64,000 bases of DNA, taken from NCBI RefSeq assembly GCF_012933445.1, contig NZ_JABBNC010000001.1, positions 1-64,000 of the forward strand, written 5' to 3'. The stretch is from Actinoplanes sp. TBRC 11911 (GTDB lineage: Bacteria; Actinomycetota; Actinomycetes; Mycobacteriales; Micromonosporaceae). Of the stretch, positions 29,018 through 64,000 are shown piece after piece (position 1 is the stretch's first letter; every line of letters begins with the position of its first letter). The notes under the pieces were generated by a model. The model made no database searches and was not told the DNA's origin. It saw only the letters and a program-made list of their open reading frames with translations. Both the position numbers and the translations under genes were made by a program.

Positions 29018-30068
29018 CGGCCGTGAAACGAACAAGCTTCTTCGCGCCGGGCAGCCGGTCGTACAGCTCCTGCGACTGCCCCGCGAAGAACTGGTCGTCG
29101 TCCGGCGCGAGCACCAGCATGGGCGTACGGATGTTCTGAATCTCGTCGCCCAGCCGGAACTGCTGCACCACGCGGAACGTGTCGAACGGGTTGTCCTGCC
29201 CGTACGGCCGGCTCCGGAAGGCGAACTCCCGCGCCTGCGCCGGATCCCCGCCGATGCTCGCCATGATCCCGTTGAACGTGTCCTTGTCCCCGCCCCGCAA
29301 CAGGTCGAGCATCTGCGGCGGCAGATTCTTGTTCCACGTACGGGAAACGTCGACCACGCCGCCGTCCACGACCGCGGCCTGGAGGCGATGCTCGAAGGCC
29401 AGCGCCCGCGGCAGCCAGTAGCCGCCCTGGCTGATGCCGTAGCCGGTCAGCCGGTCGGCGTCCACGTCCGGCCGGGTCACGAGGGCGTCGATGACCGGGG
29501 TGAGGACGGCCTCCCAGTCGTGGCGGAACGGCACACCGCGCTGAAAAAGCATGGATTGCTGACCGGGCCCGTCGAACAGGAAGGCATTCCAGCCGCGTTC
29601 CAGGGCCGCCCCCGCGCCGTAGCCGACGAGGCCGGCCATCGAGCCGTCGCTGCCGTTCGTCATGACCAGCGTCGGCCGTCTCGCCCCGGTGTCATCCGGC
29701 CGCAGCAGGTAGCCCGGCAGCGTGGCACCCTCGTAGGGCACATCGATCCGGACAAACTTCCGTTCCCCCGCGTACGCCTCCCACGCCGCGACCTGCCGCT
29801 GGAAGGTGTCCGCCGGGTCCGTCGCCAGCGCGTCCGCGACCACGAGTGCCTTGGCGAAATACGTGCTGGCGGCGAGGTGGTCGGCCTCCTCGGCGGCCGC
29901 GACCCAGGCGTCGAACCAGCTTTGCGCGTCACCGTCCGCGATCCGCCCGATGGTGGCGAGCACCAGCCCCGCGTCGCCGACGCCTTGGGAGACCGCGCCG
30001 AGGGCGATGCGGGTCTCGTAGTCGAAGGTCGGGTCCTTGAAGAAAGCTCCTGCCGAAGTCCAGTCCAT
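28938..30068 (-). CDS. Alpha/beta hydrolase with N-terminal cap
   Basis: 376-residue alpha/beta hydrolase. The N-terminal ~140 residues form a helical cap, followed by the core. Nucleophile elbow GYGISQGGYW supplies Ser; the acid is probably Asp in VLAPDDDQFF; the His lies in GANWHCQP near the end. This architecture resembles the FrsA/pseudooxynicotine hydrolase group and the separate hydrolase at 50356. ATG at 30068 was chosen because an upstream small gene ends at 30073. Likely cytoplasmic. Substrate unknown. Its 3' end overlaps the DUF4386-like gene by 80 bases. Confidence 0.85.
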   Translation of the reverse strand: MDWTSAGAFFKDPTFDYETRIALGAVSQGVGDAGLVLATIGRIADGDAQSWFDAWVAAAEEADHLAASTYFAKALVVADALATDPADTFQRQVAAWEAYAGERKFVRIDVPYEGATLPGYLLRPDDTGARRPTLVMTNGSDGSMAGLVGYGAGAALERGWNAFLFDGPGQQSMLFQRGVPFRHDWEAVLTPVIDALVTRPDVDADRLTGYGISQGGYWLPRALAFEHRLQAAVVDGGVVDVSRTWNKNLPPQMLDLLRGGDKDTFNGIMASIGGDPAQAREFAFRSRPYGQDNPFDTFRVVQQFRLGDEIQNIRTPMLVLAPDDDQFFAGQSQELYDRLPGAKKLVRFTAATGANWHCQPLARRETHRRMFEFLAG

Positions 30069-30072
30069 GGCC

Positions 30073-30255
30073 TCACTGTGGCCAGCCCATCCGGCCCGCA
30101 CAACCGGGCCGCGTGCTCTGCGCCCGCATGACCATTTTGCGTTGCCAGAAACGTTTCCGGGCAGGGGTCCGAATCCGCCGGGCGATCAGGTGGCCCGCGG
30201 GCTCGGCCAACGCGGCGGCCGACACGTATTCGACCTCGATGCGGTAGCGAATCAT
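30073..30255 (-). CDS. Small basic hypothetical protein
   Basis: 60-residue basic protein. Its ATG overlaps the stop of the preceding membrane-protein gene as ATGA, and its stop is 4 bases before the hydrolase start, so it fits exactly into a three-gene leftward operon. The sequence ([21 protein letters not shown]) shows no known domain. Support is the coupling only. Confidence 0.45.
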   Translation of the reverse strand: MIRYRIEVEYVSAAALAEPAGHLIARRIRTPARKRFWQRKMVMRAQSTRPGCAGRMGWPQ

Positions 30256-50355: not shown

Positions 50356-51435
50356 TCATCGCCCGACCGTGTCCGGCGACACGCCCAGATGATCGGCCAT
50401 CCAGTCGGCGATCATCGGGCGGGCCTTCGACGGCAAGTTGGACACACCGTGGTTGCCCTCGGGGAAGCAGACGAACGTGCCCTTCGGCGTCTCGTCCGCC
50501 TGCCGCTGCGTCTGCTGCCACGGAATCAGCCGGTCGAGCTTGCCGGTCACGTACAGCGCGGGCACGCTGATCTGCTGGCACACCCCGTCCAGGTCGAGGG
50601 TGAGGGCCAGCCGCCGGCCCTCCTCGTCGTCGCGCGCTCCGGACTTCACCACGAACGCCTGACGGGTCATCGGCGGCAGGTCGTCCCACATGTCGCCGAA
50701 CCGGAAGGGCCCGCTGATCGCGGCGACCGCGGCAACCCGCGGCTCGTGAGCCACCGCACGTGGCGCGTAATACGCGCCCAGGCTCACACCGGCGACACCG
50801 ATCCGTGCGTGGTCCAGGTCGTCGCGATCGGACAGCAGGTCGAGCAGCGGGCTCACCGCCACCTCGTAGTCCGGCCGGATCCGCAGCTTCAGCCCCGTCT
50901 CCCCCTGCCCCGGCCCGTCCAGCGAGACGGTGGCCATGCCACGGTCCAGGAAGGACTGCTCGAAGTAGAAGAACTCCTCCTTCGTCGAGTCCAGCCCGGG
51001 GATCACGACGACGTAGGGCGGCCGTTCGACGCCCGCGGGCCGCCGCAGGTTGGCGTAGGCCGTGCCATCGGGAATCGGGATCTCCAGACGCTCGCCCGAC
51101 GGGTCGAGGCGCTCCAGCGCGGTGCGGGTCTCCCACACCGACCGGTGGGTGGCCTCGGCCGCCAGATCGAGGTCGACCATCCAGACGAACTTGCCGAAGT
51201 GCCGGTTCACCGACGCTCGCCGCCAAGCCTGCCCGGCGGTCAGCGCGTGCCCGGTCGCGTCCGCCTCCCGCGCGAACTCCGCCTGCTCGTCCGCGGTCCG
51301 GTTCCACTGCGGCAGCCAGTCCGCCCAGGTCTCGGTGCGCGCGATCGTCGCCATCAGGTCGTTGTAGTCCACGCCGTTCTGGATCAGCCGGGGTCCCCAG
51401 TGGGCGAGTGCGGTCTCGATTGCGGTGTCGGGCAT
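50356..51435 (-). CDS. Alpha/beta hydrolase (dihydropseudooxynicotine-hydrolase-like)
   Basis: 359-residue alpha/beta hydrolase with an N-terminal helical cap (~1-120) and core. Nucleophile Ser in GVAGVSLGAYYAP; acid probably Asp in VTGKLDRLIPW; His in PEGNHGVSNL. The overall layout matches 2,6-dihydropseudooxynicotine hydrolase of nicotine catabolism and related C-C bond hydrolases. It begins 12 bases after the E2 gene stop, so it is the last gene of the E1-E2-hydrolase operon. Role in cleaving a diketone-type intermediate is inference. Confidence 0.85.
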   Translation of the reverse strand: MPDTAIETALAHWGPRLIQNGVDYNDLMATIARTETWADWLPQWNRTADEQAEFAREADATGHALTAGQAWRRASVNRHFGKFVWMVDLDLAAEATHRSVWETRTALERLDPSGERLEIPIPDGTAYANLRRPAGVERPPYVVVIPGLDSTKEEFFYFEQSFLDRGMATVSLDGPGQGETGLKLRIRPDYEVAVSPLLDLLSDRDDLDHARIGVAGVSLGAYYAPRAVAHEPRVAAVAAISGPFRFGDMWDDLPPMTRQAFVVKSGARDDEEGRRLALTLDLDGVCQQISVPALYVTGKLDRLIPWQQTQRQADETPKGTFVCFPEGNHGVSNLPSKARPMIADWMADHLGVSPDTVGR

Positions 51436-51447
51436 GCGGAACCTCCG

Positions 51448-52743
51448 TCAGACCAGAATGCGGACAGGGGCCTCGAGGAGGCCGAGGAAGTGCGCCATCC
51501 AGCGGGCGCCGAGCACGCCGTCGACCGGCCGGTGGTCGACCGAGAGCGACACCCGCAGCACGGTGGCGACGGCGGGTTGCCCGTCGACGGCGACGACCTC
51601 CGGCCGGGCGGCGCCGACGGCCAGGATCGCGGCCTGCGGCGGGTTGATCACCGCGGTGAACTCCTCCGTCCCGTGGACGCCGAGGTTCGTGACGGTGAGC
51701 GTGCCGCCGTCCAGCTCGTCCTGGCGCAGCTTGCCGTCCCGGGCGCGGGCCACCAGCTCGGCGCTGCGCCGGGCCAGCGCGGAGACGGTCAGGCTCTGCA
51801 GGCCGCGCATCACCGGCGTCACCAGTCCGCTGTCGGTGGCGACCGCGATCGCGAGGTCGACGTCGTGGAACCGCCGGACAGCGTCGTCGGTCCACACCAC
51901 GTTCATGTCCGGGATGGCGACGTGCGTGCGCGCGGCCGCCGCGACGACCAGGTCGTTGAGCGAGATCTTCACGTCGGTGGCGGCGTTGAGCTCGGTGCGG
52001 AGCGCGAGGAGGGCGTCGACCCGCGCACTCCCCCGGATCGTGAAGACCGGTGTCTGGCCGGCGGCCGTGCCCAGGCGGGACGCGATGGCCCGCCGCATCC
52101 GCGAGTGCGGGATCTCGTCGTATCCGGCCGGGGCGTCGTCCACGACCGCGGGTTCGGTACGCGACGGTCCAGCAACCTGAGGACGGTCGCTGCTCGGCGC
52201 GACGCCGTTGGGGACGGGTCGAACGGCCGCGCGAGCCGCCAGCGCTCGGTGAATGTCGCTGCGGACGATCCGCCCGCCGGGCCCGGTGCCGTCGAGGTCC
52301 TCGACCCGCAGACCGTTCTCCCGGGCGAGCCGGCGGGCCAGCGGGCTCGCGAACACCCGTTGCCCAGCCGTGCTCGCGAGCTCTCGCTCCGCGGCGTTCT
52401 GGCTGACCTCGCGATCGCCCGCCGGAGCCGGTTCGTCCGGCACCGGCGGCGACGCCGCCCCGATGAGCGCCCGCACCAGGGCGTCGATGTCGTCGACGAC
52501 CTCGCCGGGCTCGGCGAGCAGCGCCATGGGCGTGCCCACCGATACGGCCTTGCCGGGCTCGACCAGCATCCGCAGCAGAACCCCGTCGCTGTCGGCGGGC
52601 ACGTCCACGACGGCCTTGTCGGTCTCCACCGTCGCGATCGGATCGCCTTGCGCGAACGCCGCGTTCTCGGCGAGCGGCCACTCGCTCAGCACGGCCTCCA
52701 CCACGTTGGCGGAGATCGCCGGCATCCTCAGCAGGCTCGCCAT
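51448..52743 (-). CDS. 2-oxoacid dehydrogenase E2 (dihydrolipoamide acyltransferase)
   Basis: 431-residue E2 component. Lipoyl domain (~1-78) with K43 in VETDKAVVDVP; peripheral subunit-binding domain (~130-165: ASPLARRLARENGLRVEDLDGTGPGGRI); catalytic domain with SVDHRPVDG near the end. ATG at 52743 follows the E1 stop after one base. No E3 (lipoamide dehydrogenase) gene is in the window, so a shared E3 must be used. Probably serves a branched or acetoin-type oxoacid rather than pyruvate, from its context. Confidence 0.9.
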   Translation of the reverse strand: MASLLRMPAISANVVEAVLSEWPLAENAAFAQGDPIATVETDKAVVDVPADSDGVLLRMLVEPGKAVSVGTPMALLAEPGEVVDDIDALVRALIGAASPPVPDEPAPAGDREVSQNAAERELASTAGQRVFASPLARRLARENGLRVEDLDGTGPGGRIVRSDIHRALAARAAVRPVPNGVAPSSDRPQVAGPSRTEPAVVDDAPAGYDEIPHSRMRRAIASRLGTAAGQTPVFTIRGSARVDALLALRTELNAATDVKISLNDLVVAAAARTHVAIPDMNVVWTDDAVRRFHDVDLAIAVATDSGLVTPVMRGLQSLTVSALARRSAELVARARDGKLRQDELDGGTLTVTNLGVHGTEEFTAVINPPQAAILAVGAARPEVVAVDGQPAVATVLRVSLSVDHRPVDGVLGARWMAHFLGLLEAPVRILV

Positions 52744-52744
52744 C

Positions 52745-54913
52745 TCACGCCTCGCCGATCTGGCGCAGCGCTCCGGCGACCTCGTCGGCACGCGCGATCG
52801 CCGCTCGCTCCAGCACCTTGGAGATGCTCGGGGACGCCTCGCCCCCGGTGACCCGCTGGATCGGTGCGTCCAGCCAGTCGAAGAACCGGCGCTGGATCTC
52901 GTCGGCCAGCCACCCGCCGTAGGAGGTGCCGACCGCGCCCTGCTCGACGATGAGGATCCGGTTGGTCTTGCGGATGCTCTCGCCGACCGTCTCCCAGTCG
53001 AGGCTGGCCCGGTCGAGCCAGCGCAGGTCAATCACCTCGGCGTCCACGCCGGTCTCGTCGGCCGCGGCCAGTGTCTCGGCGACCATCGAGAGGTAGGTCA
53101 GGACGGTGACCGCCTCCCCGGTGCGGCGCACGGCCGCCTTGCCGACCGGCAGGCAGTAGTCGTAGTCGTCGACCGGGGCCTCGCCGGTGCTGTTGTAGAG
53201 GTCGACGTGTTCGAGCACGACCACCGGGTCGTCGCAGCGCAGGGCGGCGTTCATCAGGCCGACGTAGTCGAACGGGGTGGACGGCGCGACGATCCGCCAG
53301 CCGGCCGACGTCGCGTACACCCCCGCGGGATCCATCGAGTGCTGCGAGCCGTAGCCGGTGCCGGCCGCGGATTTGCTGCGCAGCACGAGCGGGACCGGGC
53401 CGTCGCCGCCGAACATGTGCCGCGCCTTGGCGACCTGGTTGAACAGCTGGTCGGCGGCGACCCACATGAAATCGGCGTACATGAACTCGACCACCGGCCG
53501 GAACCGGCCGTCCAGAGCGATGCCGCCGGCCAGGCCGGTGAAGGCGTTCTCGCTGATCGGCGTGCCGAGCACCCGATCGGGGAAGGCGGCCTTGAGCCCC
53601 TTGGTGGCCCCGTTGGTGCCGCCGTTGAGCCGGTGCACGTCCTCGCCCAGCACGATGATGCGGTCGTCGGTCTCCATCCGGCGGCGCATCACCTCGGCGA
53701 CCACGTCGATGAACTTCGCCTCGTGCACGGCGACGTCCCCGTCGGCCGTGCGGACGCCGTCGAACTCGCGCAGATCGCCCCGGACGCCCACGTTGACGAA
53801 GGTGGGGTCGGGCCACTCCCCCGGCCGGATGCGCCGCTCGCCGGGCTTGCCGCCGGGTAAGGACTCGAGCAGGGTCGAGCCCGCCGCGTCCATGGCGGCC
53901 CGCGCGCCCGCAACGGCTGCCGCCCGCGCCTCGGCGGTGAGCAGGCCCCGGCGTACGAGATGGGAGGCGACCTGGTCGATGGGGTCCCGGGCGCGCCATC
54001 GCGCTTCCTCGTCCTTGTCGCGATAGCGGAAGGCACTGCCGGGGAAAGGCCCGTTCTGGTGGAAGTAGCGGTAGGTGTCCGCCTCGACGAGCGTGGGGCC
54101 ACGGCCGGCCCGCATGTGCGCGGTCGCCTCCCGCATGGCCAGGTGGACGGCGAGCGGGTTCATGCCGTCGACCCGCCAGCTCGCGATGCCGAAGCCGGGC
54201 CCGCGCGCGGACAGCCGCGGCTCGCCGGTCGCCTCGGCGACGCTGGTGGACACGGCGTACTGATTGTTCTCCAGGAAGAAACAGACGGGCAGCTGCCAGG
54301 CGGCGGCCAGGTTGAACGTCTCGAGCGTGGAGCCGATGTTGGCGGCGCCGTCGCCGAAATAGGTCGCCGCGACGGCGTCGGTGCCCGCGTGCCGGCAAGC
54401 CCACGCGAAGCCGGCCGCGAGGGGCACACCGCCGCCGACGATGGCGTTCGTGCCCATCGCGCCGGCTTCCTTCCATTGCAGGTGCATCGAGCCGCCGCGG
54501 CCGTGACTGAAGCCGCGGTCCAGCCCGCAGATCTCGCCCAGCGTGCGGAGCAGCAGCGTGCGGATCTCGTCGGGCAGCTCGGCGGTCAGGTCGAAGCCCT
54601 TGGGTGCGACGTGCTGCAAAGCCTTCGCCAGGAACTGGTGGTGGCCGCGATGCGACCCGTTGACCTCGTCGCCGGGCGCGAGCGCGAGAACCGACCCGAC
54701 CGCGCCGCCCTCCTGGCCGATGCTGGAGTGCGCGGGGCCGTGCACGAGGCCCGCGCCGGCCAGCTCCAGCACATATTCCTCGAAGGCACGGATGAGCACG
54801 AGCTGATGGAACATCGTGGCGAGCAGCTCGGGGTCGGCCGCGTCCCAGTCGGCATCGGTGGTGACGAGCTCCCGCCAGGGGGCATCGGGGTGAAGCGATT
54901 GGTGGTCCGGCAT
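52745..54913 (-). CDS. Fused 2-oxoacid dehydrogenase E1 alpha-beta
   Basis: 722 residues combining both E1 chains. The alpha half (~1-370) has HRGHHQFLAKAL, the ThDP motif GDGAANIGSTLETFN ending LENNQYAVST, and HGRGGSMH. The beta half (~395-722) has GEDVHRLNGGTNGATKGL, PISENAFTGLAGGIAL, FMYADFMW and HSMDPAGVY. The alpha type resembles acetoin and branched-chain dehydrogenases, and the fused form is unlike the split genes common in actinobacteria. First gene of its operon, starting 36 bases beyond a likely GntR operator. Confidence 0.9.
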   Translation of the reverse strand: MPDHQSLHPDAPWRELVTTDADWDAADPELLATMFHQLVLIRAFEEYVLELAGAGLVHGPAHSSIGQEGGAVGSVLALAPGDEVNGSHRGHHQFLAKALQHVAPKGFDLTAELPDEIRTLLLRTLGEICGLDRGFSHGRGGSMHLQWKEAGAMGTNAIVGGGVPLAAGFAWACRHAGTDAVAATYFGDGAANIGSTLETFNLAAAWQLPVCFFLENNQYAVSTSVAEATGEPRLSARGPGFGIASWRVDGMNPLAVHLAMREATAHMRAGRGPTLVEADTYRYFHQNGPFPGSAFRYRDKDEEARWRARDPIDQVASHLVRRGLLTAEARAAAVAGARAAMDAAGSTLLESLPGGKPGERRIRPGEWPDPTFVNVGVRGDLREFDGVRTADGDVAVHEAKFIDVVAEVMRRRMETDDRIIVLGEDVHRLNGGTNGATKGLKAAFPDRVLGTPISENAFTGLAGGIALDGRFRPVVEFMYADFMWVAADQLFNQVAKARHMFGGDGPVPLVLRSKSAAGTGYGSQHSMDPAGVYATSAGWRIVAPSTPFDYVGLMNAALRCDDPVVVLEHVDLYNSTGEAPVDDYDYCLPVGKAAVRRTGEAVTVLTYLSMVAETLAAADETGVDAEVIDLRWLDRASLDWETVGESIRKTNRILIVEQGAVGTSYGGWLADEIQRRFFDWLDAPIQRVTGGEASPSISKVLERAAIARADEVAGALRQIGEA

Positions 54914-54948
54914 CTCGACCTCCTTCGTCGCGAGTCAGCCTGCCATGC

Positions 54949-54960
54949 ATTGGATCCAAT
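54949..54960. promoter_or_regulatory. GntR/FCD operator candidate 1
   Basis: ATTGGATCCAAT, a perfect 12-base palindrome, lies 35 bases before the E1 ATG. Dyads of the form ATTGxATnCAAT are typical binding sites of GntR-family FCD regulators. Confidence 0.75.
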
Positions 54961-55010
54961 TTTCAACCCCGGCCCGGCTTCCGTCGACCACGGCGGGTGC
55001 GATAGGTTCG

Positions 55011-55022
55011 ATTGGATCCAAA
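55011..55022. promoter_or_regulatory. GntR/FCD operator candidate 2
   Basis: ATTGGATCCAAA repeats the same palindrome, one base off, 12 bases before the VOC gene start. The two centres are 62 bases apart, close to six helical turns, allowing a looped complex across the divergent promoter. Confidence 0.75.
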
Positions 55023-55034
55023 CGGAGGTGCGCG

Positions 55035-55529
55035 ATGGGACTCCCCGGTCTACGACGGCTCGACCACGTCGGCTTCACCGTGCCCGACCTCGACGAGGCG
55101 CAGAAGTTTCTGGTCGACGTGCTCGGCTGTGAATACCTGTATTCGCTCGGCCCGTATGCCGACGACGGCTCATGGATGGCCGTCCACCTCAACGTGCACC
55201 CGCGCGCGACGATCCCGGAAAACCGGTTCTTCCGCCTCGGCGACCAGGCGATCCTCGAGGTGTTCAGCTACACCGCGCCGGACCAGTGCGCCACCCCGCC
55301 GCGCAACAGCGACATCGGCGGCCACCACGTCGCGTTCTACGTCGACGACCTGGACGCGGCGGTGGCGCACCTGCGCGACCACGGCGTGACCGTGTGCGGC
55401 GAGCCGACCACGAGTCGCGGGCCGCACGAGGGGCAGCGGTGGATCTACTTCCTGGCACCATGGGGCATGCAGTTCGAGCTGGTGTCCTACCCGCACGGCC
55501 GGGCCTTCTTCCGGAACGAGAAACGATGA
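55035..55529 (+). CDS. VOC-family (glyoxalase/dioxygenase-fold) protein
   Basis: 164-residue protein with two vicinal-oxygen-chelate modules. LDHVGFTVPDLDEAQKFLVDVLG opens the first; GGHHVAFYVDDLDAAVAHLRDHG the second; His residues and the C-terminal Glu in GMQFELVSYPHGR are candidate metal ligands. VOC proteins include glyoxalases, epimerases and ring-cleaving dioxygenases. ATG follows GGAGGTGCGCG. It starts the rightward operon and overlaps the GntR gene by 4 bases. Confidence 0.85.
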   Translation: MGLPGLRRLDHVGFTVPDLDEAQKFLVDVLGCEYLYSLGPYADDGSWMAVHLNVHPRATIPENRFFRLGDQAILEVFSYTAPDQCATPPRNSDIGGHHVAFYVDDLDAAVAHLRDHGVTVCGEPTTSRGPHEGQRWIYFLAPWGMQFELVSYPHGRAFFRNEKR

Positions 55530-56167
55530 CCGTCGCTACTCAACGCGTCGCCGACCACCTGCGCAGCGCCATCCTGGGCGGGCACATCGCGCCGGGCGAG
55601 CGCGTCCGCCAGGAGGACATCGCGCAGCAGCTCGGAGCGAGCCGGCTGCCGGTTCGCGAGGCGCTGCAGATGCTCGCGGCCGAGGGCCTGGTCGAGCACG
55701 AGCCCAACAAGGGCGCCCGGGTGCCGTGGTTGTCCATGCACGAGGTCGATGTCATGTACAAGATGCGCGAGCAACTCGAGCCGCTCGCGCTGGCCGAGAG
55801 CATGCCGTTCCTGACCCCCGGCGACCTGCTGCGCCTCGACGAGATCCAGGAGGAGATCGAGACCGGCGTCGACGTGGAGAGCTTCATGTCACTGGACCGC
55901 GAGTTCCACCTCCGGACGTACAGCGCCTGCGGGATCGACCAGCTCACCAACGCGGTGACCCGGCTGTGGAACTCGACGCAGTACTACCGGCGCGCGTTCA
56001 TGCAGCTCACCGGTCCGAGCCGGCGGTGGGTGGTGAACGCGGAACACCGCCTGATCATCGACGCGGTCAGCCGCCGCGACGAGGTGGACGCCGGTCGCTT
56101 CCTGGCCGGGCACATCCGGCGCACCCGCATCGAGCTACGCCGTCATCCCGAGGTCTTCGCGGAGTAA
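55526..56167 (+). CDS. GntR-family regulator with FCD domain
   Basis: 213-residue regulator. Winged helix ~1-70 (RVADHLRSAILGGHIAPGERVRQEDIAQQLGASRLPVREALQML); FCD all-helical effector domain ~85-210 with metal-binding His in DREFHLRTYSA and AEHRLI and GHIRRTR. FCD ligands are usually carboxylate metabolites. ATG overlaps the VOC stop (ATGA). It probably controls the divergent E1 and VOC promoters through the paired palindromes. Confidence 0.9.
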   Translation: MTVATQRVADHLRSAILGGHIAPGERVRQEDIAQQLGASRLPVREALQMLAAEGLVEHEPNKGARVPWLSMHEVDVMYKMREQLEPLALAESMPFLTPGDLLRLDEIQEEIETGVDVESFMSLDREFHLRTYSACGIDQLTNAVTRLWNSTQYYRRAFMQLTGPSRRWVVNAEHRLIIDAVSRRDEVDAGRFLAGHIRRTRIELRRHPEVFAE

Positions 56168-56169
56168 AT

Positions 56170-56613
56170 ATGATCAGCTTCTTGGTGAACGGGGTGCCGC
56201 GCGAGGTCGACGCGGATCCGGAAACCCCGCTGCTGTACGTGTTACGCAACGACCTGGGGCTCATGGGCGCCCGGTTCGGGTGCGGGCTGGGGCTGTGCGG
56301 CGCGTGCTTCGTGCACGTCGACGGCGTCGCGGTGCCGTCCTGCGACACGCCGATCTGGTCGCTCGCCGGCAAATCCGTGGTGACCGTCGAGGGTCTGACG
56401 CCGCACCCGGTCCAGCAGGCGTTCCTCGACGAGCAGGCGGCCCAGTGCGGTTACTGCGTCACCGGCATCGTCATGTCCGCGGCGGCCCTGCTCGACCGCG
56501 AGCCGCATCCCGACGAGCGCCGGGTGGCCGAGGCACTGGACCGGCACCTGTGCCGGTGCGGATCGCAGCAGCGGATGGTGCGCGCGATCGTGAAGGCGGG
56601 CCGCGATGGCTGA
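56170..56613 (+). CDS. [2Fe-2S] subunit of molybdenum hydroxylase
   Basis: 147-residue small subunit of the xanthine-oxidase family. The plant-type cluster is formed by cysteines in GCGLGLCGACFVH and VPSC; the second cluster by CGYCVTG and HLCRCGSQQ. The absence of a separate FAD subunit points to the IorAB/nicotinate-dehydrogenase type, which passes electrons to another carrier. A TTA codon (56242-56244) falls at residue 25. ATG at 56170, 2 bases after the GntR stop. Confidence 0.92.
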   Translation: MISFLVNGVPREVDADPETPLLYVLRNDLGLMGARFGCGLGLCGACFVHVDGVAVPSCDTPIWSLAGKSVVTVEGLTPHPVQQAFLDEQAAQCGYCVTGIVMSAAALLDREPHPDERRVAEALDRHLCRCGSQQRMVRAIVKAGRDG

Positions 56614-58765
56614 GCCACGCAACGACCCGAGCGCACACCCCCGCCATGGCAGCCCGGCCCCGGCGGACCCGAGCGCGGAGCCACGCACGGACCCGAGCGC
56701 GGAGCCACGCACGAAAACCAGCGCGGAGTCACGCACGGACCTGCCCAAGGACCTCGCGGCCAACCCGATCCTGTCCCGCTGGATCCGCGTCCAGCCGGAC
56801 GGCGTGATCGACGTCCAGGTCGGCAAGGTCGAGCTCGGCCAGGGCATCGTCACCGCCCTGGCGCAGATCGCCGCGGACGAGCTCGGCGTCGGCATGGACG
56901 CCGTCCGCATGGTGCCGGCCGGGCCGGGCGGACCGGACGAGGGCATGACCGCCGGCAGCATGTCGATCATGGATTCGGGCTCGGCGCTACGCGTCGCGGC
57001 CGCGAACGTCCGGGCCCTCTTCGAGGCTGCCGCGGGCACTGCCGATTTCTCGTACGCGGAATGGGCCGATCGCGTCGACCTCAACGTGTGCGCCCTGGCG
57101 GACGTCCCGCTGCGCTCCGAGGCGGTGCTGGTCGGGCAGGACGTCGCGCGGCTCGACCTGCCCGACAAGATCTTCGGACGGCCGCGCTACATCCAGGACA
57201 TGCGACTACCCGGGCAGCTGTTCGGGCGGGTGGTGCGGCCGCCGTCGCGCGGCGCCCGGCTGCTCTCGGTGACCGGCGACCTGGCCGACGGCGTGTCCGT
57301 GGTGCGCGACGGCTCCTTCCTGGGGCTGGTGGGGGCCGACGAGGCGCGGGTGGTCCGATGCGCCGAATCGTTTCGCCGCGGGTCGCGCTGGGCCGAGCAC
57401 GACTCCCTGCCCGACGAGAAGGAGCTGGACAAATTCCTGCGCGCCGGGCCGCACGAGACGATCGAGGTGATCGACGACGCGGCCGAAACGCACGGCGGCG
57501 ACCGGTTGGTGCGGGCGACCTACAGCCGGCCGTTCGTCGCGCACGCCTCGATGGCGCCGAGCTGCGGGGTCGCGGTCTGGCGTGGCCCGGCCGAGGTCGA
57601 CGTCTGGTCGCACAGCCAGGGTGTCTTCCCGCTCGGGCGGGCGATCGCGGCCGCCCTGGGCCTCGACCCGGCCGGGGTGCGGGTCGAGCACGCCGAGAGC
57701 GCAGGCTGCTACGGGCACAACGCCGCCGACGACGCCGCGTTCGACGCGGTGCTGCTCGCACGGGCCGTCCCGGGTACGCCGGTGCAGGTGCTCTGGAGCC
57801 GGCAGGACGAGTTGTCGTGGGCCCCGTTCGGGTCGGCGATGACCGCGGACGTCGCCGCCACGCTGTCCGCCGACGGCCGGCTCACGTCGTGGCACTATGA
57901 CGTCTACAGCCAGGGGCACACGGCCCGGCCCGGGTACGCGGGCGGGGTGCCCGGGCTCCTCGCGGCGACCTTCCTGAAGGAGCCGGCCGACTATCCGGCC
58001 GCGGTGGATCCGTCGGCCGCCAGCGGGTACGGCGGCACGCGTAACGCGCTGCCGGGCTATGACCTGCCACGCCGCCGGATCACCGGGCATCGGCTGACCG
58101 AGTCGCCGATCCGGAGCTCCGCGATGCGGGCGCTCGGCGCGTATCTGAACGTTTTCGCCATCGAGTGCTTCATGGACGAGGCCGCCGAGCACGCCGGCCG
58201 CGACCCGCTGGAGTTCCGGCTCGCGCACCTCAGCGATCCGCGCGGCCGGCGCGTGCTCACCGCGGCTGCCGAGGCGGCCGGCTGGGGAAGCCCGCAACCC
58301 GAGGGAGTCGGTCTGGGGCTGGGGTACGCCCGGTACAAGGGCCGAGGTGGCTACTGCGCGGTGGTGGCCGAGGTGGAGGCGGAGTCCGAGGTGCGGCTGC
58401 GCCGGCTCACCATCGCGGTCGACGTGGGCCGGGTGGTCAATCCGGACGGCGTCCGCAACCAGATCGAGGGCGGCGCCCTGCAGTCGGCGAGCTGGACGCT
58501 GGTCGAGCGGGTCCGCTTCGATCGGCGCCAGGTCACGAGCGACACCTGGGAGACCTATCCGATCTTGCGCTTCTCCCAGGTCCCGCGCGTCGACGTCACC
58601 GTGCTGGACGGCGGCGGCGAGAAATCGGTCGGCGCCGGGGAGGCCGCTCAGGGCCCGACGGCGGCCGCGATCGGCAACGGCCTCGCGGCCGCGATCGGCG
58701 TGCGCGTGCGGGATCTCCCCTTGACGAGCGAGGCGGTAATCACGGCGATAGAACGCGACAACTGA
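56606..58765 (+). CDS. Molybdopterin-binding subunit of molybdenum hydroxylase (IorB-like)
   Basis: 719-residue large subunit. VGKVELGQGIVTALAQIAADEL is the first molybdopterin segment; GNDR-like loops are replaced by TESPIRSSAMRALGAYLNVFAIECFMDE; the catalytic Glu lies in EKSVGAGEAAQGPTAAAIGNG near the C-terminus. Such enzymes hydroxylate N-heterocycles or aldehydes with water-derived oxygen. The first ~50 residues are a low-complexity DPSAEPRT repeat, in place of the Tat signal found on many IorB proteins. ATG overlaps the small-subunit stop by 8 bases. Cytoplasmic location is implied by lack of a signal. Confidence 0.88.
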   Translation: MAEPRNDPSAHPRHGSPAPADPSAEPRTDPSAEPRTKTSAESRTDLPKDLAANPILSRWIRVQPDGVIDVQVGKVELGQGIVTALAQIAADELGVGMDAVRMVPAGPGGPDEGMTAGSMSIMDSGSALRVAAANVRALFEAAAGTADFSYAEWADRVDLNVCALADVPLRSEAVLVGQDVARLDLPDKIFGRPRYIQDMRLPGQLFGRVVRPPSRGARLLSVTGDLADGVSVVRDGSFLGLVGADEARVVRCAESFRRGSRWAEHDSLPDEKELDKFLRAGPHETIEVIDDAAETHGGDRLVRATYSRPFVAHASMAPSCGVAVWRGPAEVDVWSHSQGVFPLGRAIAAALGLDPAGVRVEHAESAGCYGHNAADDAAFDAVLLARAVPGTPVQVLWSRQDELSWAPFGSAMTADVAATLSADGRLTSWHYDVYSQGHTARPGYAGGVPGLLAATFLKEPADYPAAVDPSAASGYGGTRNALPGYDLPRRRITGHRLTESPIRSSAMRALGAYLNVFAIECFMDEAAEHAGRDPLEFRLAHLSDPRGRRVLTAAAEAAGWGSPQPEGVGLGLGYARYKGRGGYCAVVAEVEAESEVRLRRLTIAVDVGRVVNPDGVRNQIEGGALQSASWTLVERVRFDRRQVTSDTWETYPILRFSQVPRVDVTVLDGGGEKSVGAGEAAQGPTAAAIGNGLAAAIGVRVRDLPLTSEAVITAIERDN
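56666..56737. repeat. 24-bp in-frame repeats in Mo-hydroxylase gene
   Basis: Two identical 24-base copies start at 56666 and 56690, with a decayed third to 56737. They encode eight-residue units DPSAEPRT, DPSAEPRT and KTSAESRT. Confidence 0.85.
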
Positions 58766-58940
58766 CTACCAACTGCGGTTGGTGGTCGGGTTAGACATGC
58801 CCGTCGACCCGCGGGCGCGGATCGCGCCGCGGCGGCCCGTAGGCGATCGGCGACCTGGGCTACGGGTCGTGGCTGCCCCTGGCTGGAGACCGCCGGGAAA
58901 ATCTTCACCGTTCCCGGCGCGGCCCGCCCCAGCCCAACCC

Positions 58941-59000
58941 GGTGCGACCCGGTGCGGCCCGGTGCGACCCGGTGCGGCCCGGTGCGGCCCGGTGCGGCCC
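58941..59000. repeat. Six 10-bp tandem repeats
   Basis: Six consecutive units of GGTGCGRCCC fill 58941-59000 exactly, with A or G at position 7. Non-coding. Confidence 0.9.
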
Positions 59001-59208
59001 GGTGGCCCGCGACCTGACCGCCTCTCCCGTTCCGCGAACGAGCGTTCGTTTCTCATCGAGCCGAACACCGCGGTGCAGGCCTGGGTGGGACGGCGCATTC
59101 GCGGTGCCGAACGGAGCTAAACGTTCACGGGACATCATATACACCTTTTCACCCGGCTTGGACCGCTTCAATGTCCACATCGGTCGGCTGCGCGCGATCG
59201 GATTTCCG

Positions 59209-59255
59209 GACCTTGGAGAGTTGTGGTTCATATATGGGCGTAACTCTCCAAGGTC
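59209..59255. terminator. Perfect 14-base inverted repeat
   Basis: GACCTTGGAGAGTT (59209-59222) is exactly complementary to AACTCTCCAAGGTC (59242-59255) across a 19-base A/T-rich loop. In the convergent spacer it could terminate transcription from both sides; it might also be the remnant of a small mobile repeat. Confidence 0.65.
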
Positions 59256-59823
59256 TCGAAATCGCCCGGCCAGCAGCCCGCCCAAAAGCCGCTAACCCGG
59301 GTAAAACCACTGTCCTATTCGAACGTCCATCCCGGTATGCAGGAATCCGCGACCGCATACTGAGAGCGCGGCCGGACGCGGACACCATTCGCCAGCACCC
59401 GCGCGACCGCCGAGAGCGCGGGCGTACCTTATCAGTATTTATCGGATATCGGGCGCGCGCCGCTGGGCCTCCCGCGTTGCTCGCCGGCCCCGGCACCGCG
59501 CTGCCAACGAGCGCACGGCCCGACCTCGCGCAGCACCTCGAGCGCGACCGGCACTCCCCTGAGCCGTGGCCCGGCGACATGTCTCGGCCGGGCGGTGCAG
59601 AATCCAAGAATTACTCGTCTGGCTGGTCCTGCCGGTCTCGCTATCCGTGCCGGGCTGGCAAGAGCGCGGACGCGAATGGCACCCGGTCGCGGCCGAGGTC
59701 CGGTCGTACGGCGTCCGGCCGCGCCACCAAGGCGACCAAGGCCACGAAGACGACCGGAACCCGTACGCGCCGAAGCTGATTCACGTTCAGGTCGCGGTGC
59801 GCGGGGTCCTGCGGACCGTCGAA

Positions 59824-61245
59824 TCACCAGTCGACGGCGATGTACTTCGACTCCAAATAGTCCAGCATTCCCTCGTGGCCGCCCTCCCGCCCGAGCCCGC
59901 TCTGCTTGACCCCGCCGAACGGCGCGGCCGGGTCGCTGACCAAACCCCGGTTCAAGCCCACCATGCCGGCCTCGAGAGCCTCGCTCACCCGCAGGCCGCG
60001 GGCCAGGTCGCCGGTGTAGACGTACGCCACCAGGCCGAACTCGGTGTCGTTGGCGAGCCGTACGGCCTCGTCCTCGGCGGTGAACGTGACGATCGGCGCC
60101 ACCGGCCCGAAGATCTCCGAACGGAGGATCGCGGCGTCCGGAGCCACCCCGGTCAACACAGTCGGCGGGTAGTAGTAACCCGGGCCGGGCAGCCGCGTGC
60201 CACCGGTGACCACGACGGCCCCGCCGGCCAGGGCCGAACGGACCAGCCCGTCCACCTTCGCCACCGTGTCCTCGTTGACCAGCGGCCCGACCTGCGTGTC
60301 CGCGGAGACACCGGGCCCGACGCGCAACTCTGCCATCCGCGACGACAACCGTGACGCGAACTCGCCTGCGACCGACGCGTGCACGTAAAACCGATTGGCC
60401 GCCGTGCACGCCTCCCCCGCGTTCCGCATCTTCGCCACCATCGCACCCTCAAGAGCCGCGTCCAGATCGGCATCCTCGAACACGAGGAACGGCGCGTTGC
60501 CCCCAAGCTCCATCGACGTATTCACCACGTTGTCCGCCGCCGAGGCCAGCAACACCCGGCCCACTTCGGTCGACCCGGTGAACGACACCTTCCGCACCCG
60601 CGGATCGTGCAGCATCGCCGACACGACGGCCCCGGAACGCCGCGAGGGCAGCACATTCACCACCCCGTCCGGCACCCCGGCCTCGGCCAGCAGCGCCGCC
60701 ATCGCCAGCGCGGTCAACGGCGTGTCGCTGGCCGGCTTCAGCACCATCGTGCATCCCGCCGCCAGCGCCGGCCCGATCTTCCGGGTGGCCATCGCGGCCG
60801 GGAAGTTCCACGGCGTCACCAGCACACAGACGCCGACGGGCTGCCGCACCACCAGGATGCGGTTCGCCCCCGACGGAGCGGTGCCGACCGTGCCCGACCC
60901 GCGCACCGCCTCCTCCGAATACCACCGGAAGAACTCCGCGGCGTAGGCCACCTCGCCGAGCGCGTCCGCATACGCCTTGCCGTTCTCCAGGCTGATCAGT
61001 TGCGCGAACGCGGAGGCCCGGGAAGTCATCAGCTCGAACGCCGCCCGGAGAATCGCCGATCGCGCGCGCGGCGACGTGGCTGCCCACGAGGCAGCCGCCG
61101 CCGACGCCGAGTCCACCGCGGCGAGAGCGTCGGCGACCGAGCCGTCCGAAACCGAGGTGATCACGCCCCCGGTGGACGGGTCGATCACGTCGAAACGGGA
61201 CGCGGCGGCCACCCATTTGCCACCGATGAATAGGTCAGTGTCCAC
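59824..61245 (-). CDS. Aldehyde dehydrogenase (succinate-semialdehyde dehydrogenase-like)
   Basis: 473-residue NAD(P)-dependent aldehyde dehydrogenase. TPWNFPAAMATRKIGPALAAG binds the cofactor, FTGSTEVGR precedes the catalytic Glu in MELGGNAP, and nucleophile Cys lies in NAGEACTAANRF. The GEACTAANR and KQSGLGREGGHEGMLDYLESKYI forms are of the GabD/semialdehyde group. GTG start at 61245, GAGGAG site overlapping the M24 stop 10 bases upstream. Likely oxidises an acid semialdehyde in the island's pathway. Confidence 0.9.
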   Translation of the reverse strand: MDTDLFIGGKWVAAASRFDVIDPSTGGVITSVSDGSVADALAAVDSASAAAASWAATSPRARSAILRAAFELMTSRASAFAQLISLENGKAYADALGEVAYAAEFFRWYSEEAVRGSGTVGTAPSGANRILVVRQPVGVCVLVTPWNFPAAMATRKIGPALAAGCTMVLKPASDTPLTALAMAALLAEAGVPDGVVNVLPSRRSGAVVSAMLHDPRVRKVSFTGSTEVGRVLLASAADNVVNTSMELGGNAPFLVFEDADLDAALEGAMVAKMRNAGEACTAANRFYVHASVAGEFASRLSSRMAELRVGPGVSADTQVGPLVNEDTVAKVDGLVRSALAGGAVVVTGGTRLPGPGYYYPPTVLTGVAPDAAILRSEIFGPVAPIVTFTAEDEAVRLANDTEFGLVAYVYTGDLARGLRVSEALEAGMVGLNRGLVSDPAAPFGGVKQSGLGREGGHEGMLDYLESKYIAVDW

Positions 61246-61255
61246 AAACCACTCC

Positions 61256-62494
61256 TCAGTACGGGTTCGCCACTACCAGGTCCTGCGCCGGGAACAGCGT
61301 CAGAATGCGCGGCCCTTCCGGCGTCACCACGACCTCTTCCTCGATCCGCGCCGCCGAGAACCCGTCACTGGCCGGGCAATACGTCTCCAGCGCGAACACC
61401 ATCCCCACCTGCAACTCCACCGGCGCGGTCATGCTGTTGAGCCGCGAGATGATCGGCCGTTCGTGCAGCCCCAGCCCGAGCCCGTGGCCGAATTGGAGTC
61501 CGAAGGCGGCCATCTCGTTCTCGAAACCGAATTCCGGCGCCGTGGGCCACACCGCCGCGATCTCGTCGGTACCCACCCCGGGCCGGACGGCCGCGATCGC
61601 CGCGTCCATCCATTCCCGGGCTTTCCCGTACGCCGACCGTTGCGCCTCGGTCGACCGCCCCACCCCGAGCGTGCGGTAATAGCAGGTCCGATACCCGTTG
61701 TAGGAATGGATGATGTCGAAGAACGCCTGATCCCCCGGCCGGATGATGCGATCGGAGAAATTGTGCGGGTGCGGATTGCACCGCTCCCCGGACACCGCGT
61801 TGATGGCTTCGACCTGGTCCGAACCCATGTCGTAGAGGCGCTTGTTGGCCAGCGCCACGATCTCGTTCTCCCGGATCCCGGGCTTGAGCACCTCGACGAT
61901 GTCCTGGTACACCCCGTCGACCATCGCCGCCGCCTGGTTCAGCAGCATGATCTCGTCCGGCGACTTGATCAGCCGGGCGTCGAGCATGAGCTGCTGGCAG
62001 TCGACGACCCGCAGGCCCTGGCGCTGCATCTCGAACAGGAACGGCGGCTCCACGATGTCCACGCCGACCGGCTGATCGGCCACCCCGGCGTCGACGAGCA
62101 TGCCCTTGATCTCGCGGACGGCGGACTCCATGAGCCCGGCGGACGGCGCGATCGCCCCGCGCATCCCGAGCATCCCGGCCCGGCAGTCGTCCGGGTCGAG
62201 CCACGGCGCGTACAGCTTGTGGTGCCGCGCCGCCGAGCCGAAGTCCCACAGCGTCGGCTTCGCGGAGCGGGTGAGCAGCGCGTACCGGGTCATCTTGTCG
62301 CCCAGCGCACCACCGATCCAGGTCTGCGTGGTGTAGCGGATGTTGTAGAAGTCGAACAGCAGGAACGCCCCGCACTCCGATCCGGCCAGCGCTTTCTGGG
62401 CGCGTTCCAGCCGGTAGCGCCGCAGCCGGTCGAAGTCGACCCGCTCCTCGTAGTCGACGCCCATGTGCCCCGGCGCCGCGAGAGGCCGGCTCAT
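61256..62494 (-). CDS. M24 (creatinase/prolidase-fold) protein, altered metal site
   Basis: 412 residues: creatinase-like N-terminal domain (~25-165) and pita-bread M24 domain (~175-412). Metal-site positions: first Asp present (D260 in AFFDIIHSY), second Asp replaced by C271 in GYRTCYYRT, His in FGHGLGLGLHERP, Glu in GMVFALET and in AARIEEEVVV. One of five usual ligands is therefore changed. ATG overlaps the beta-HAD stop (ATGA). Members of this fold include aminopeptidases, creatinase (metal-free) and DMSP lyase, so peptidase function should not be assumed. Context suggests hydrolysis or elimination on a small catabolite. Confidence 0.85.
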   Translation of the reverse strand: MSRPLAAPGHMGVDYEERVDFDRLRRYRLERAQKALAGSECGAFLLFDFYNIRYTTQTWIGGALGDKMTRYALLTRSAKPTLWDFGSAARHHKLYAPWLDPDDCRAGMLGMRGAIAPSAGLMESAVREIKGMLVDAGVADQPVGVDIVEPPFLFEMQRQGLRVVDCQQLMLDARLIKSPDEIMLLNQAAAMVDGVYQDIVEVLKPGIRENEIVALANKRLYDMGSDQVEAINAVSGERCNPHPHNFSDRIIRPGDQAFFDIIHSYNGYRTCYYRTLGVGRSTEAQRSAYGKAREWMDAAIAAVRPGVGTDEIAAVWPTAPEFGFENEMAAFGLQFGHGLGLGLHERPIISRLNSMTAPVELQVGMVFALETYCPASDGFSAARIEEEVVVTPEGPRILTLFPAQDLVVANPY

Positions 62495-63423
62495 GAGCCC
62501 AGCCCGTCGTCGACGAAGACGTCGGACGGCTTCAGCGTCAGCCCGGCGGCCGCCGCCTGCTGGTCGAGCAGGATCGCGAAGTCCTCGCTCACCCGCCCGG
62601 ACGCGACCGCCTGGTTCACCAGCTGGGCGGTCAGCCCGGCCAGCGGCATCGGCACGTTCAGTTCGTGCCCGGCCGCCAGCCCGAGGTCGAAGTCCTTCTG
62701 CAGCAGCACCGGGGTGAAGGTGGGCGTGTAGTCGAGGTGCACGAAGGCCGGCGATTTGTACCGGGTGAACATCGACCCCATCACGCTGTCGTTGAGGAAC
62801 TCCAGGAACGCGGCCCGCGACACGCCGCCCCGCTCGGCCAGCACGGTGATCTCGGCCAGGCACTGGGTGACCACGCCGAGCATCAGGTTGTGGCAGATCT
62901 TCACGAGCCGCGAGACATCACCCTCCCCCACGTACGTCACCGAGCGCCCGATGTGCCGCAGCAGGTACTCGACACGCTCGAACGCGGAAACCGGCCCGGA
63001 CACCGCGATGCTCAGCTTCCCGGCCGTGACCACCTTGCCGTTCCCGCTGACCGGAGCGGCCAGGAACGGCACGCCGCGCAGCAGGCACTCGGCCCGGACC
63101 AGCGCCGACCCCTCGGTCGAGACGGTCGAGCAGTCCACCACCACGCCCGGCAGCCGGGCCGGGTCGGCGAGCAGCCCGTCCTCGCCGAGGAGCACCGCCT
63201 GCAGGTCCGCCTCGGTGGCCACCATCGTGAACACCACGTCCCGATCGCGCAGGTCGGCCAGCGAGTCGGCGACCGAGCAGCCGTGCTCGACGGTGGCGAG
63301 GGCCTTGGACCTGGTCCGGTTCCAGACGGCCGGGGGCGCACCGGCGCGGGCCAGCCGGGTCGCCATCGCGGCGCCCATCCGGCCGGCGCCGATCCAGCCG
63401 ACGGTCAGTTCGTTGTCTGGCAT
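62491..63423 (-). CDS. Beta-hydroxyacid dehydrogenase (3-hydroxyisobutyrate type)
   Basis: 310-residue NAD(P)-dependent dehydrogenase. GWIGAGRMGAAMATRLARAG is the Rossmann turn with NRTRSKA following; substrate motif VDCSTVS, linker FLAAPVSGNGKV and catalytic Lys in RLVKICHNLML are present. The family includes 3-hydroxyisobutyrate, tartronate-semialdehyde and 2-(hydroxymethyl)glutarate dehydrogenases. ATG at 63423, 17 bases after the ABC gene. Probably oxidises or reduces a hydroxyacid semialdehyde of the same pathway. Confidence 0.9.
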   Translation of the reverse strand: MPDNELTVGWIGAGRMGAAMATRLARAGAPPAVWNRTRSKALATVEHGCSVADSLADLRDRDVVFTMVATEADLQAVLLGEDGLLADPARLPGVVVDCSTVSTEGSALVRAECLLRGVPFLAAPVSGNGKVVTAGKLSIAVSGPVSAFERVEYLLRHIGRSVTYVGEGDVSRLVKICHNLMLGVVTQCLAEITVLAERGGVSRAAFLEFLNDSVMGSMFTRYKSPAFVHLDYTPTFTPVLLQKDFDLGLAAGHELNVPMPLAGLTAQLVNQAVASGRVSEDFAILLDQQAAAAGLTLKPSDVFVDDGLGS

Positions 63424-63440
63424 GTGATCTCCCAGGAAGT

Positions 63441-64000
63441 TCAGGTGGCAGGGGTGGGCGAGGGCGTGGTGCCGCCCAGGTACAAGGAGGCCATCTCCGG
63501 GTGGTCGCGGACCTCGGCCGCGGTGCCGGTGAGCCGCACCTTGCCGCCCTCCATCACCACGCCGTGGGTGGCCAGGCCGAGCCCGAGCCGGACGTTCTGT
63601 TCGACCAGCAGCACGGTCGTACCGCCGGAGTTGAGGCTCTGGATGAGCGCCGCCACCGCGGCCAGCGACCGCGGGTCCAGCCCCAGCGACGGTTCGTCGA
63701 GCAGCAGCAGCTTCGGGTCGAGCATCAGGCAGCGGGCGATCTCCACCATCCGCCGCTGCCCGCCGGACAGGTTGCCGGCGTGGTCCGAGGCGCGTTCCGC
63801 GACGAGCGGGATCCGCGCGACCACCGCGTCGTACCGGGCGGCGAGCAGCTTGCGGTCGCGCCGGATCAGATAGCCGCCGAGCAGCACGTTCTCGCGCACC
63901 GACATGCCGGGGAACAGCGCCTGCGACTGCGGCACCTGGGTGATGCCCAGCTTGAGGATCTCCTCCGGGGCCAGGCCGTCGGTGCGCACGCCGTCCATCT
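63441..64000 (-). CDS. Branched-chain-amino-acid-type ABC ATPase, LivF-like (partial)
   Basis: C-terminal ~186 residues of an ABC ATPase; the N-terminal part with Walker A lies beyond the window edge. Q-loop [17 protein letters not shown], signature [13 protein letters not shown], Walker [12 protein letters not shown] and switch region LLVEQN are present, and YLG near the C-terminus is typical of LivF. It should serve a HAAT-family importer for amino acids or carboxylates, with companion genes to the right. Same strand and 17 bases from the dehydrogenase, so uptake appears to be in the same operon. Confidence 0.9.

Follow-up and report, generated by a model that had tools for sequence, protein, structure and literature searches.

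What do the genes near the start of contig NZ_JABBNC010000001.1 (C1 below) of Actinoplanes sp. TBRC 11911 do, and do they belong together? The window, meaning the whole stretch analysed here, is C1:1-64000 (64,000 bases of a contig of 681,460 bases, in a 9.66-Mb genome of 97 contigs), and at its right end, from 50356 on, it holds a two-subunit molybdenum (Mo) hydroxylase, a fused E1 with its E2 acyltransferase, several further enzymes, a transcriptional regulator and part of an importer. Our analyses indicate that this interval probably belongs to a single catabolic system that handles a small polar compound and is run by two regulators. Gene content, synteny, co-occurrence across genomes and the positions of predicted operator palindromes all favour a single system. 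The genes named in the original prediction do exist, with open frames and families recognised by models, and the interval reads as follows.

50356..51435, minus strand: alpha/beta hydrolase (ABH) resembling 2,6-dihydroxypseudooxynicotine (DHPON) hydrolase (2JBW, E 8.7e-45)
51448..52743, minus strand: E2 acyltransferase from a complex of the 2-oxoacid/acetoin dehydrogenase type (Pfam lipoyl, E3-binding and catalytic domains)
52745..54913, minus strand: fused E1 alpha/beta, dependent on thiamine diphosphate (ThDP) (PF00676, PF02779, PF02780)
54949..54960, no strand: predicted GntR/FCD operator ATTGGATCCAAT, identical to the VanR operator in a passage of PMC7970624
55011..55022, no strand: second predicted GntR/FCD operator ATTGGATCCAAA
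55035..55529, plus strand: VOC protein with conserved His11, Glu75, His98 and Glu148 (family model)
55526..56167, plus strand: GntR/FCD transcriptional regulator (PF00392, PF07729)
56170..56613, plus strand: Mo hydroxylase small subunit with two [2Fe-2S] domains (PF00111, PF01799)
56606..58765, plus strand: Mo hydroxylase large subunit, IorB-like, with a MoCoBD_2 piece before MoCoBD_1 (Pfam)
59824..61245, minus strand: aldehyde dehydrogenase (ALDH), succinate-semialdehyde-dehydrogenase-like (PF00171; TIGR01780 at 564 bits, under the cut-off of 646)
61256..62494, minus strand: M24-fold enzyme with Cys replacing the second metal-ligand Asp (PF00557, prolidase alignment)
62491..63423, minus strand: beta-hydroxyacid dehydrogenase of the HIBADH family with an SGN motif (family models)
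63441..64000, minus strand: LivF-type importer ATPase, identified from sequence and truncated by the window end (whole gene C1 63441-64175)

The cluster continues beyond the window on C1 with LivG/LivM, LivH, a substrate-binding protein, an NMT1-like protein, an MFS transporter and, at 70318-71358, a LacI regulator. A CrtO/CrtI-like flavin adenine dinucleotide (FAD) oxidoreductase follows at 73691-75382 and recurs in relatives; it probably belongs to the cluster, which with it covers C1 50356-75382. Relatives of this FAD enzyme at 53-66% identity lie in five loci with cluster genes (L040, L044, L152, L156 and L161, with L152 at a contig end), and others at 36-37% in three further loci. The idea of a single GntR/FCD regulator was right in that the regulator is present and incomplete in that the LacI regulator stands at the opposite end, beyond the window.

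Co-occurrence of the two halves

The hydrolase-to-Mo half (50356-58765) and the ALDH-to-importer half (59824-64000) had been predicted to form one system, and they do occur together. In an alignment scan of named genomes with the Mo large subunit, of which the best 80 of 586 loci were used, fused E1 (at least 60% identity) is present in 16 loci and M24 (at least 60%) in 13, and 11 of the 16 loci with Mo and E1 also hold the M24 gene. These 11 come from two Paractinoplanes, three Nocardioides, and one each of Actinoallomurus, Actinophytocola, Actinomadura, Sphaerisporangium, Nonomuraea and a Geodermatophilaceae bacterium. With many flanks stopping early, the VOC and GntR genes are found in all 11, HIBADH in nine, E2, hydrolase and ALDH in eight each, the NMT1-like gene in six, a CMD-like gene in five and LacI in two. 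Three of the five E1 loci without M24 (L034, L036 and L051) stop within 1 kb of the Mo gene.

The same association is seen across 393 other genomes of the class, a sample in which kinship was ignored and for which the M24 limit of 63% identity was chosen after the search result had been seen, excluding a group at 55-59%. M24 occurs in 19 of these genomes, E1 in 24 and the Mo large subunit in 17; M24 and E1 are found together in 16 (1.2 expected), M24 and Mo in 12 (0.8 expected), and E1 and Mo in 11 (1.0 expected). Within the genus, counting the own genome, 8 of 67 carry M24 at E <= 1e-120, with an identity of at least 91% in six, and the system is therefore accessory.

Predicted operators and regulators

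The E1|VOC promoter gap contains ATTGGATCCAAT at 54949 and ATTGGATCCAAA at 55011, and the entire genome has just two exact copies of the 11-mer ATTGGATCCAA, both within this gap. E1 and VOC were both present in 38 loci; with five non-divergent ones excluded, 33 gaps remained, and 26 of them, own included, carry TTGGATCCAA with at most one mismatch. The dodecamer ATTGGATCCAAT is printed as VanO, the operator of VanR, in a passage of PMC7970624. VanR is also a GntR/FCD system with an identical dodecamer, but its regulated genes are other than those here, its ligand presumably is too, and binding at the site here is predicted from sequence. For another GntR regulator, a passage of PMC7797058 gives a different palindrome.

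At the other end, the importer|NMT1-like gap on C1 contains GCAATCGTTTGC at 68111 and GCAATCGGTTGC at 68209, and GCAATCGTTTGC is found at the corresponding position in Paractinoplanes lichenicola (L029). In 50 loci, all picked for holding cluster genes, 16 of the 24 sites of the LacI-type pattern GCAAWCGWTTGC precede the start of a cluster gene by no more than 260 bases, where 1.6 would be expected; for three other palindromes the count is 0 of 7. Exact GCAATCGATTGC was found at 19 sites in seven of 13 hand-picked genomes (reversed-pattern control 0), all within 200 bases of a cluster-gene start, with two assignments (TauE in L182 and bicupin in L212) using same-locus query genes. These sites front importer, HIBADH, M24, CMD and Mo operons, a hydrolase|HIB2 gap and a cupin operon. 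In G354 and G066, GCAATCGATTGC fronts the Mo operon on one contig and the importer or HIBADH on another.

In the Actinoplanes genome itself, five A/T-form sites are present. One is at the importer, one (C46:29452) precedes a CMD-like gene (match 29507-30109, 79%), and two (C78:176442 and 176490) precede an alpha/beta hydrolase (about 175523-176419) that shares 56% identity with a gene adjoining CMD and ABH in G358. GntR and LacI are the presumed binders of their respective palindromes.

Several observations weigh against a single, two-regulator system. The fifth A/T-form site fronts another LacI cluster, on C2. Two Planotetraspora loci (L032 and L033) hold E1 and Mo but no M24, although 10 kb are available downstream of Mo, and two Kibdelosporangium loci (L039 and L086) have M24 and Mo without E1. 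The GntR site is missing from seven of the 33 gaps and was not found in the second half, and the first half in the own genome has no exact LacI site. The way in which the 50 loci were picked and the two same-locus assignments belong here as well. Six of the 13 hand-picked genomes, including all three of the same genus, are without exact GCAATCGATTGC, and the degenerate form GCAANCGNTTGC is not enriched in the own genome (15 sites, control 16), so that the LacI-type case rests on position and on relatives. In addition, a triad of HIB2, cupin and MhpD-like hydratase genes recurs (L040, L044, L151, L162, L187, L212 and L214), in some relatives near the LacI-type palindrome; the best match to the triad's cupin in the window's genome reaches just 34%, and the route may therefore differ between hosts.

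Shared core and exchangeable front ends

The island had been described as built around the Mo hydroxylase, and this part of the original prediction is not supported. We fetched 20 M24 loci, several of them on short contigs. Eighteen have M24 at no less than 60%; HIBADH accompanies it in 14 of these, E1 in 11, VOC in 10, ALDH in 10, E2 in nine and the Mo large subunit in four. The commonest shared part is M24/HIBADH/VOC/E1-E2/ALDH, and the front-end oxidase is variable; some of the fetched M24 stretches lack Mo genes and carry flavin oxygenases or SDRs. We also dropped the opposite view, that the Mo hydroxylase is merely peripheral, because the Mo subunit is statistically linked across genomes (12 of the 19 genomes with M24).

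The module occurs on plasmids in several other settings. For example, the Streptomyces YIM 121038 plasmid joins it to a luciferase-like monooxygenase and a flavin reductase, the Paenarthrobacter SD-1 plasmid to an HsaA-like flavin oxygenase, an amidase and RidA, a Phaeobacter plasmid to E3, SDRs and sugar-type importers, and the Rhodobacteraceae SC52 plasmid to SDRs and sugar-type importers. A sulfonamide link for the Paenarthrobacter plasmid was rejected, as a passage of PMC10873849 deals with sad genes on other plasmids and not with this module. In Pseudomonas oryzihabitans and Caballeronia, E1-VOC-E2-E3 is found with no M24 within the fetched 12-13 kb. In Burkholderiales (L058, L068 and L083), Mo genes are joined to HIBADH (49-52%), a CMD-like gene and one more gene, which in L068 matches NMT1 Pfam models. 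FolD was set aside as a coincidence, since it stands beside mdh/idh-like housekeeping genes in L196 and L198 (by eye).

Enzymes of the cluster

Both Pfam domains of the Mo hydroxylase small subunit are above their cut-offs. In the large subunit, residues 58-144 correspond to MoCoBD_2 positions 50-137 and residues 297-437 to MoCoBD_1, an order that we take to be the mark of IorB, and Glu679, presumably the active-site Glu, is kept in 90 of 90 rows having a residue there. There is no FAD-subunit gene between 55035 and 58765. IorAB, NicAB, NdhAB (strain S33) and the Pseudomonas simiae deoxyribose dehydrogenase likewise combine [2Fe-2S] and Mo subunits with no adjoining FAD subunit; unlike in these, no cytochrome c gene was recognised alongside the enzyme here, and we saw no close characterised relative. 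According to passages of the respective papers, a two-subunit Mo enzyme of IorAB-like type oxidises deoxyribose (PMC6365646), and nicotine and nicotinate are substrates of two-subunit FAD-less Mo enzymes (PMC5500553). Among solved structures, the large subunit is best matched by aldehyde dehydrogenase 8gy3 (E 3.1e-40), a match that does not decide between N-heterocycle and carbohydrate or aldehyde; its best organism-named relatives are Actinoplanes/Paractinoplanes proteins.

Three further observations concern the Mo genes. At 56606-56741, a 24-base tandem repeat (DPSAEPRT) encodes an N-terminal extension of ~45 residues in the large subunit, which is missing from most of 20 aligned rows, and for this reason the start used may be too early. 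A binding protein directly follows the Mo large subunit in a Burkholderiales locus (L048:12124-12816, SBP_bac_11) and a Bradyrhizobium locus (L049:12103-12810, by eye); neither has an evident signal peptide, and both are possibly cytosolic handlers of molybdate or cofactor. In a genome of the same genus, the Mo large-subunit match (G003:C10:84876-87081) is broken up into several pieces, of which one contains two TGA codons in frame, and this copy is possibly decaying or misassembled.

The ThDP motif of E1 (GDG...ENN) is kept in 41 of 41 rows, and with ThDP-dependent E1 alpha and beta parts and an E2 bearing lipoyl, E3-binding and catalytic Pfam domains, the pair has the make-up of a 2-oxoacid dehydrogenase complex. 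The suggestion that the route ends in an acyl-CoA is thus plausible from these motifs and domains. No dedicated E3 was found among the cluster genes scanned, and the rest of the genome was not searched for one; in relatives, E3 genes lie near E2 (L153, by eye, L168 and L170). The E1 + E2 pair is common to the acetoin, pyruvate and branched-chain 2-oxoacid dehydrogenase complexes, joined by E3 in some relatives, and as in acetoin-type systems, ALDH and butanediol-dehydrogenase-like SDRs are nearby in some hosts. It differs in that E1 alpha and beta are fused, the partner in the loci seen is VOC and often M24, and neither E1 nor E2 reaches the cut-off of any NCBIfam row listed. For E1 and HIBADH, matches to solved structures gave no pointer to substrate.

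The M24 protein aligns to prolidases across the ligand motifs. It retains the first Asp, the GHG His and both Glu of the five-ligand dinuclear metallopeptidase site (Asp, Asp, His, Glu, Glu), and all 50 aligned rows have Cys where the second Asp would stand (identities of 36-100%, with the gene from the window counted twice). Ectoine hydrolase DoeA and DMSP lyase DddP are non-peptidase proteins of M24 fold, and DoeA shares a catabolic operon with the semialdehyde dehydrogenase DoeC. The scores are far under their cut-offs, however (DddP 86 bits against 600, DoeA 55 bits against 613), and the Cys in place of the prolidases' second Asp ligand sets the window enzyme apart from both. In the same genome, an M24 paralogue at 54-56% with the same Cys motif (C31:74499-75746, L165) has importer-like genes and a VOC relative (31%) nearby.

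In HIBADH, the SGN motif, Asn128 and Lys175 are kept in 29 of 29 rows. All four VOC residues, which we take to be a glyoxalase I/epimerase-type ligand set, are kept in 38 of 38, and Ser218, Asp301 and His329 of ABH, presumably its catalytic triad, in 16 of 16. ABH belongs to the same family as DHPON hydrolase (2JBW), with aligned triad residues, but the two are distant (E 8.7e-45) and the neighbouring genes are other than in nicotine degradation.

The NMT1-like protein (C1 68236-69078) has 280 residues if it starts at 68236 and not at 68119. The model of a homologue, P0122, is a periplasmic-binding-protein fold (pLDDT 94.8), nearest to transport proteins such as NrtA, CmpA and SsuA and also to the enzymes Thi5 and MqnD. 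By eye, with no prediction program run, we saw no signal peptide or lipobox, and this is why the protein may be a sensor or an enzyme; several homologues start right at the fold.

Substrate and proposed route

On one hand, the substrate may be an N-heteroaromatic compound, which we regard as possible but rather doubtful. The Mo enzyme would add water-derived oxygen to the ring, M24 would open a lactam or amidine as ectoine hydrolase does, and the DHPON-like hydrolase would cut a C-C bond. DHPON hydrolase as the best solved relative of ABH, nicotine and nicotinate as substrates in the passage of PMC5500553, DoeA among the M24 matches, amidohydrolase-2, MhpD-like and cupin genes in some relatives, and the flavin oxygenase, amidase and RidA of the Paenarthrobacter plasmid module all point this way. 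Yet an aldose is oxidised by the same Mo-enzyme type in the passage of PMC6365646, 8gy3 is an aldehyde dehydrogenase, the module has LacI regulators beside it and, in several hosts, importers of sugar type, and no N-heterocycle-specific gene was recognised among the cluster genes scanned. Enamidase, maleamate amidohydrolase and 2,6-dihydroxypyridine hydroxylase are not among these genes, to which the search for them was confined. On the other hand, a carbohydrate, cyclitol or aldehyde could be the substrate, an option we consider somewhat unlikely, with the Mo enzyme as aldose/aldehyde dehydrogenase, HIBADH and SDRs oxidising alcohols, E1/E2 cleaving an alpha-ketol in the manner of acetoin dehydrogenase, and ALDH taking up the aldehyde. 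The IorAB-like deoxyribose dehydrogenase (passage of PMC6365646), the 8gy3 match and LacI control are consistent with it, as are the Phaeobacter M24/E1/E2/ALDH/E3 genes beside RbsABC-type importers and acetoin-reductase-like SDRs, the SDR-E1-VOC-E2-E3-ALDH run adjoining sugar-type genes in Pseudomonas oryzihabitans, and a 46% Mo homologue beside a sugar-acid-dehydratase-looking gene (by eye) in a 1.5-Mb genome. The importer of the window is Liv-type, however, not sugar-type, and DHPON-like hydrolase, CMD-like and MhpD-like genes are, from general knowledge, unusual for sugars.

That two unrelated catabolic clusters lie side by side by chance is very improbable. The two regulators, with different predicted operators in the own genome, and the partial loci L032, L033, L039 and L086 would fit such an arrangement; we rejected it because co-occurrence is far above expectation (kinship ignored) and because one palindrome fronts Mo operons as well as HIBADH/M24/importer operons, also across contigs (G354 and G066). 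Even harder to credit is a degenerate or variant nicotine cluster of the pyridine pathway. Its Mo hydroxylase, DHPON-hydrolase-like enzyme, succinate-semialdehyde-dehydrogenase-like ALDH and amine-oxidase-family FAD enzyme all have counterparts here, but the FAD subunit of the Arthrobacter nicotine dehydrogenase (passage of PMC5500553) is missing from the Mo enzyme. By general knowledge, that pathway has no place for M24, E1/E2, HIBADH and NMT1-like genes.

We favour one catabolic system for a small polar compound, for which we infer the regulator-palindrome pairing, every chemical step and the step order. The VanR-type GntR would act at the E1|VOC promoter through ATTGGATCCAAT, and LacI at the importer|NMT1-like promoter through GCAATCGTTTGC here and GCAATCGATTGC in relatives. 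Substrate would enter by the Liv importer and the MFS transporter and be oxidised by the two-subunit Mo hydroxylase, perhaps also by the CrtO-like FAD enzyme. Hydrolytic splitting may fall to the Cys-variant M24 and the DHPON-hydrolase-like ABH, and also to the second alpha/beta hydrolase and the CMD-like protein encoded elsewhere behind the LacI-type palindrome. HIBADH and ALDH would oxidise an alcohol or semialdehyde fragment, the VOC protein would catalyse an isomerisation, and E1/E2, with E3 from elsewhere, would form an acyl-CoA from a 2-oxoacid or, in the way of acetoin dehydrogenase, from an acyloin.

Neighbouring sequence

No oxygenase was recognised among the genes scanned at C1 50356-71358. 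An aromatic-type flavin monooxygenase (by eye) lies at C1 77433-79370, 2 kb past the FAD oxidoreductase and behind an AraC-like regulator (by eye), and none of the relative loci that we examined matches it. The Mo and ALDH genes converge on a gap of 1.06 kb, which contains a 10-base tandem repeat, CCCGGTGCGG, in 6.7 copies (58938-59004) and an imperfect 37-base inverted repeat (59186-59278). A promoter and terminator scan of 58700-59900 gave 0 and 1 sites, respectively, against 0.1 and 0.7 in shuffles.

Significance

The system spans several actinobacterial genera and families. In literature searches covering open-licence PMC papers, the text returned included no paper describing this gene set. 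Tentatively, it could represent a widespread undescribed actinobacterial pathway, also carried on plasmids of the Roseobacter group, that combines non-peptidase cleavage (possibly ring opening) by a Cys-variant M24, a cytosolic enzyme or soluble sensor of binding-protein fold, and the Mo hydroxylase as one exchangeable front end onto an acyl-CoA-forming core. An M24 subfamily with Cys at a metal-ligand position could be new among the non-peptidase M24 enzymes. The system is also present in genomes of 1.5-1.8 Mb (G358 and G318), and a pathway kept there likely matters. The predicted operators name members of the system independently of substrate and link genes on separate contigs, and an inducer screen with one promoter could reveal the substrate.

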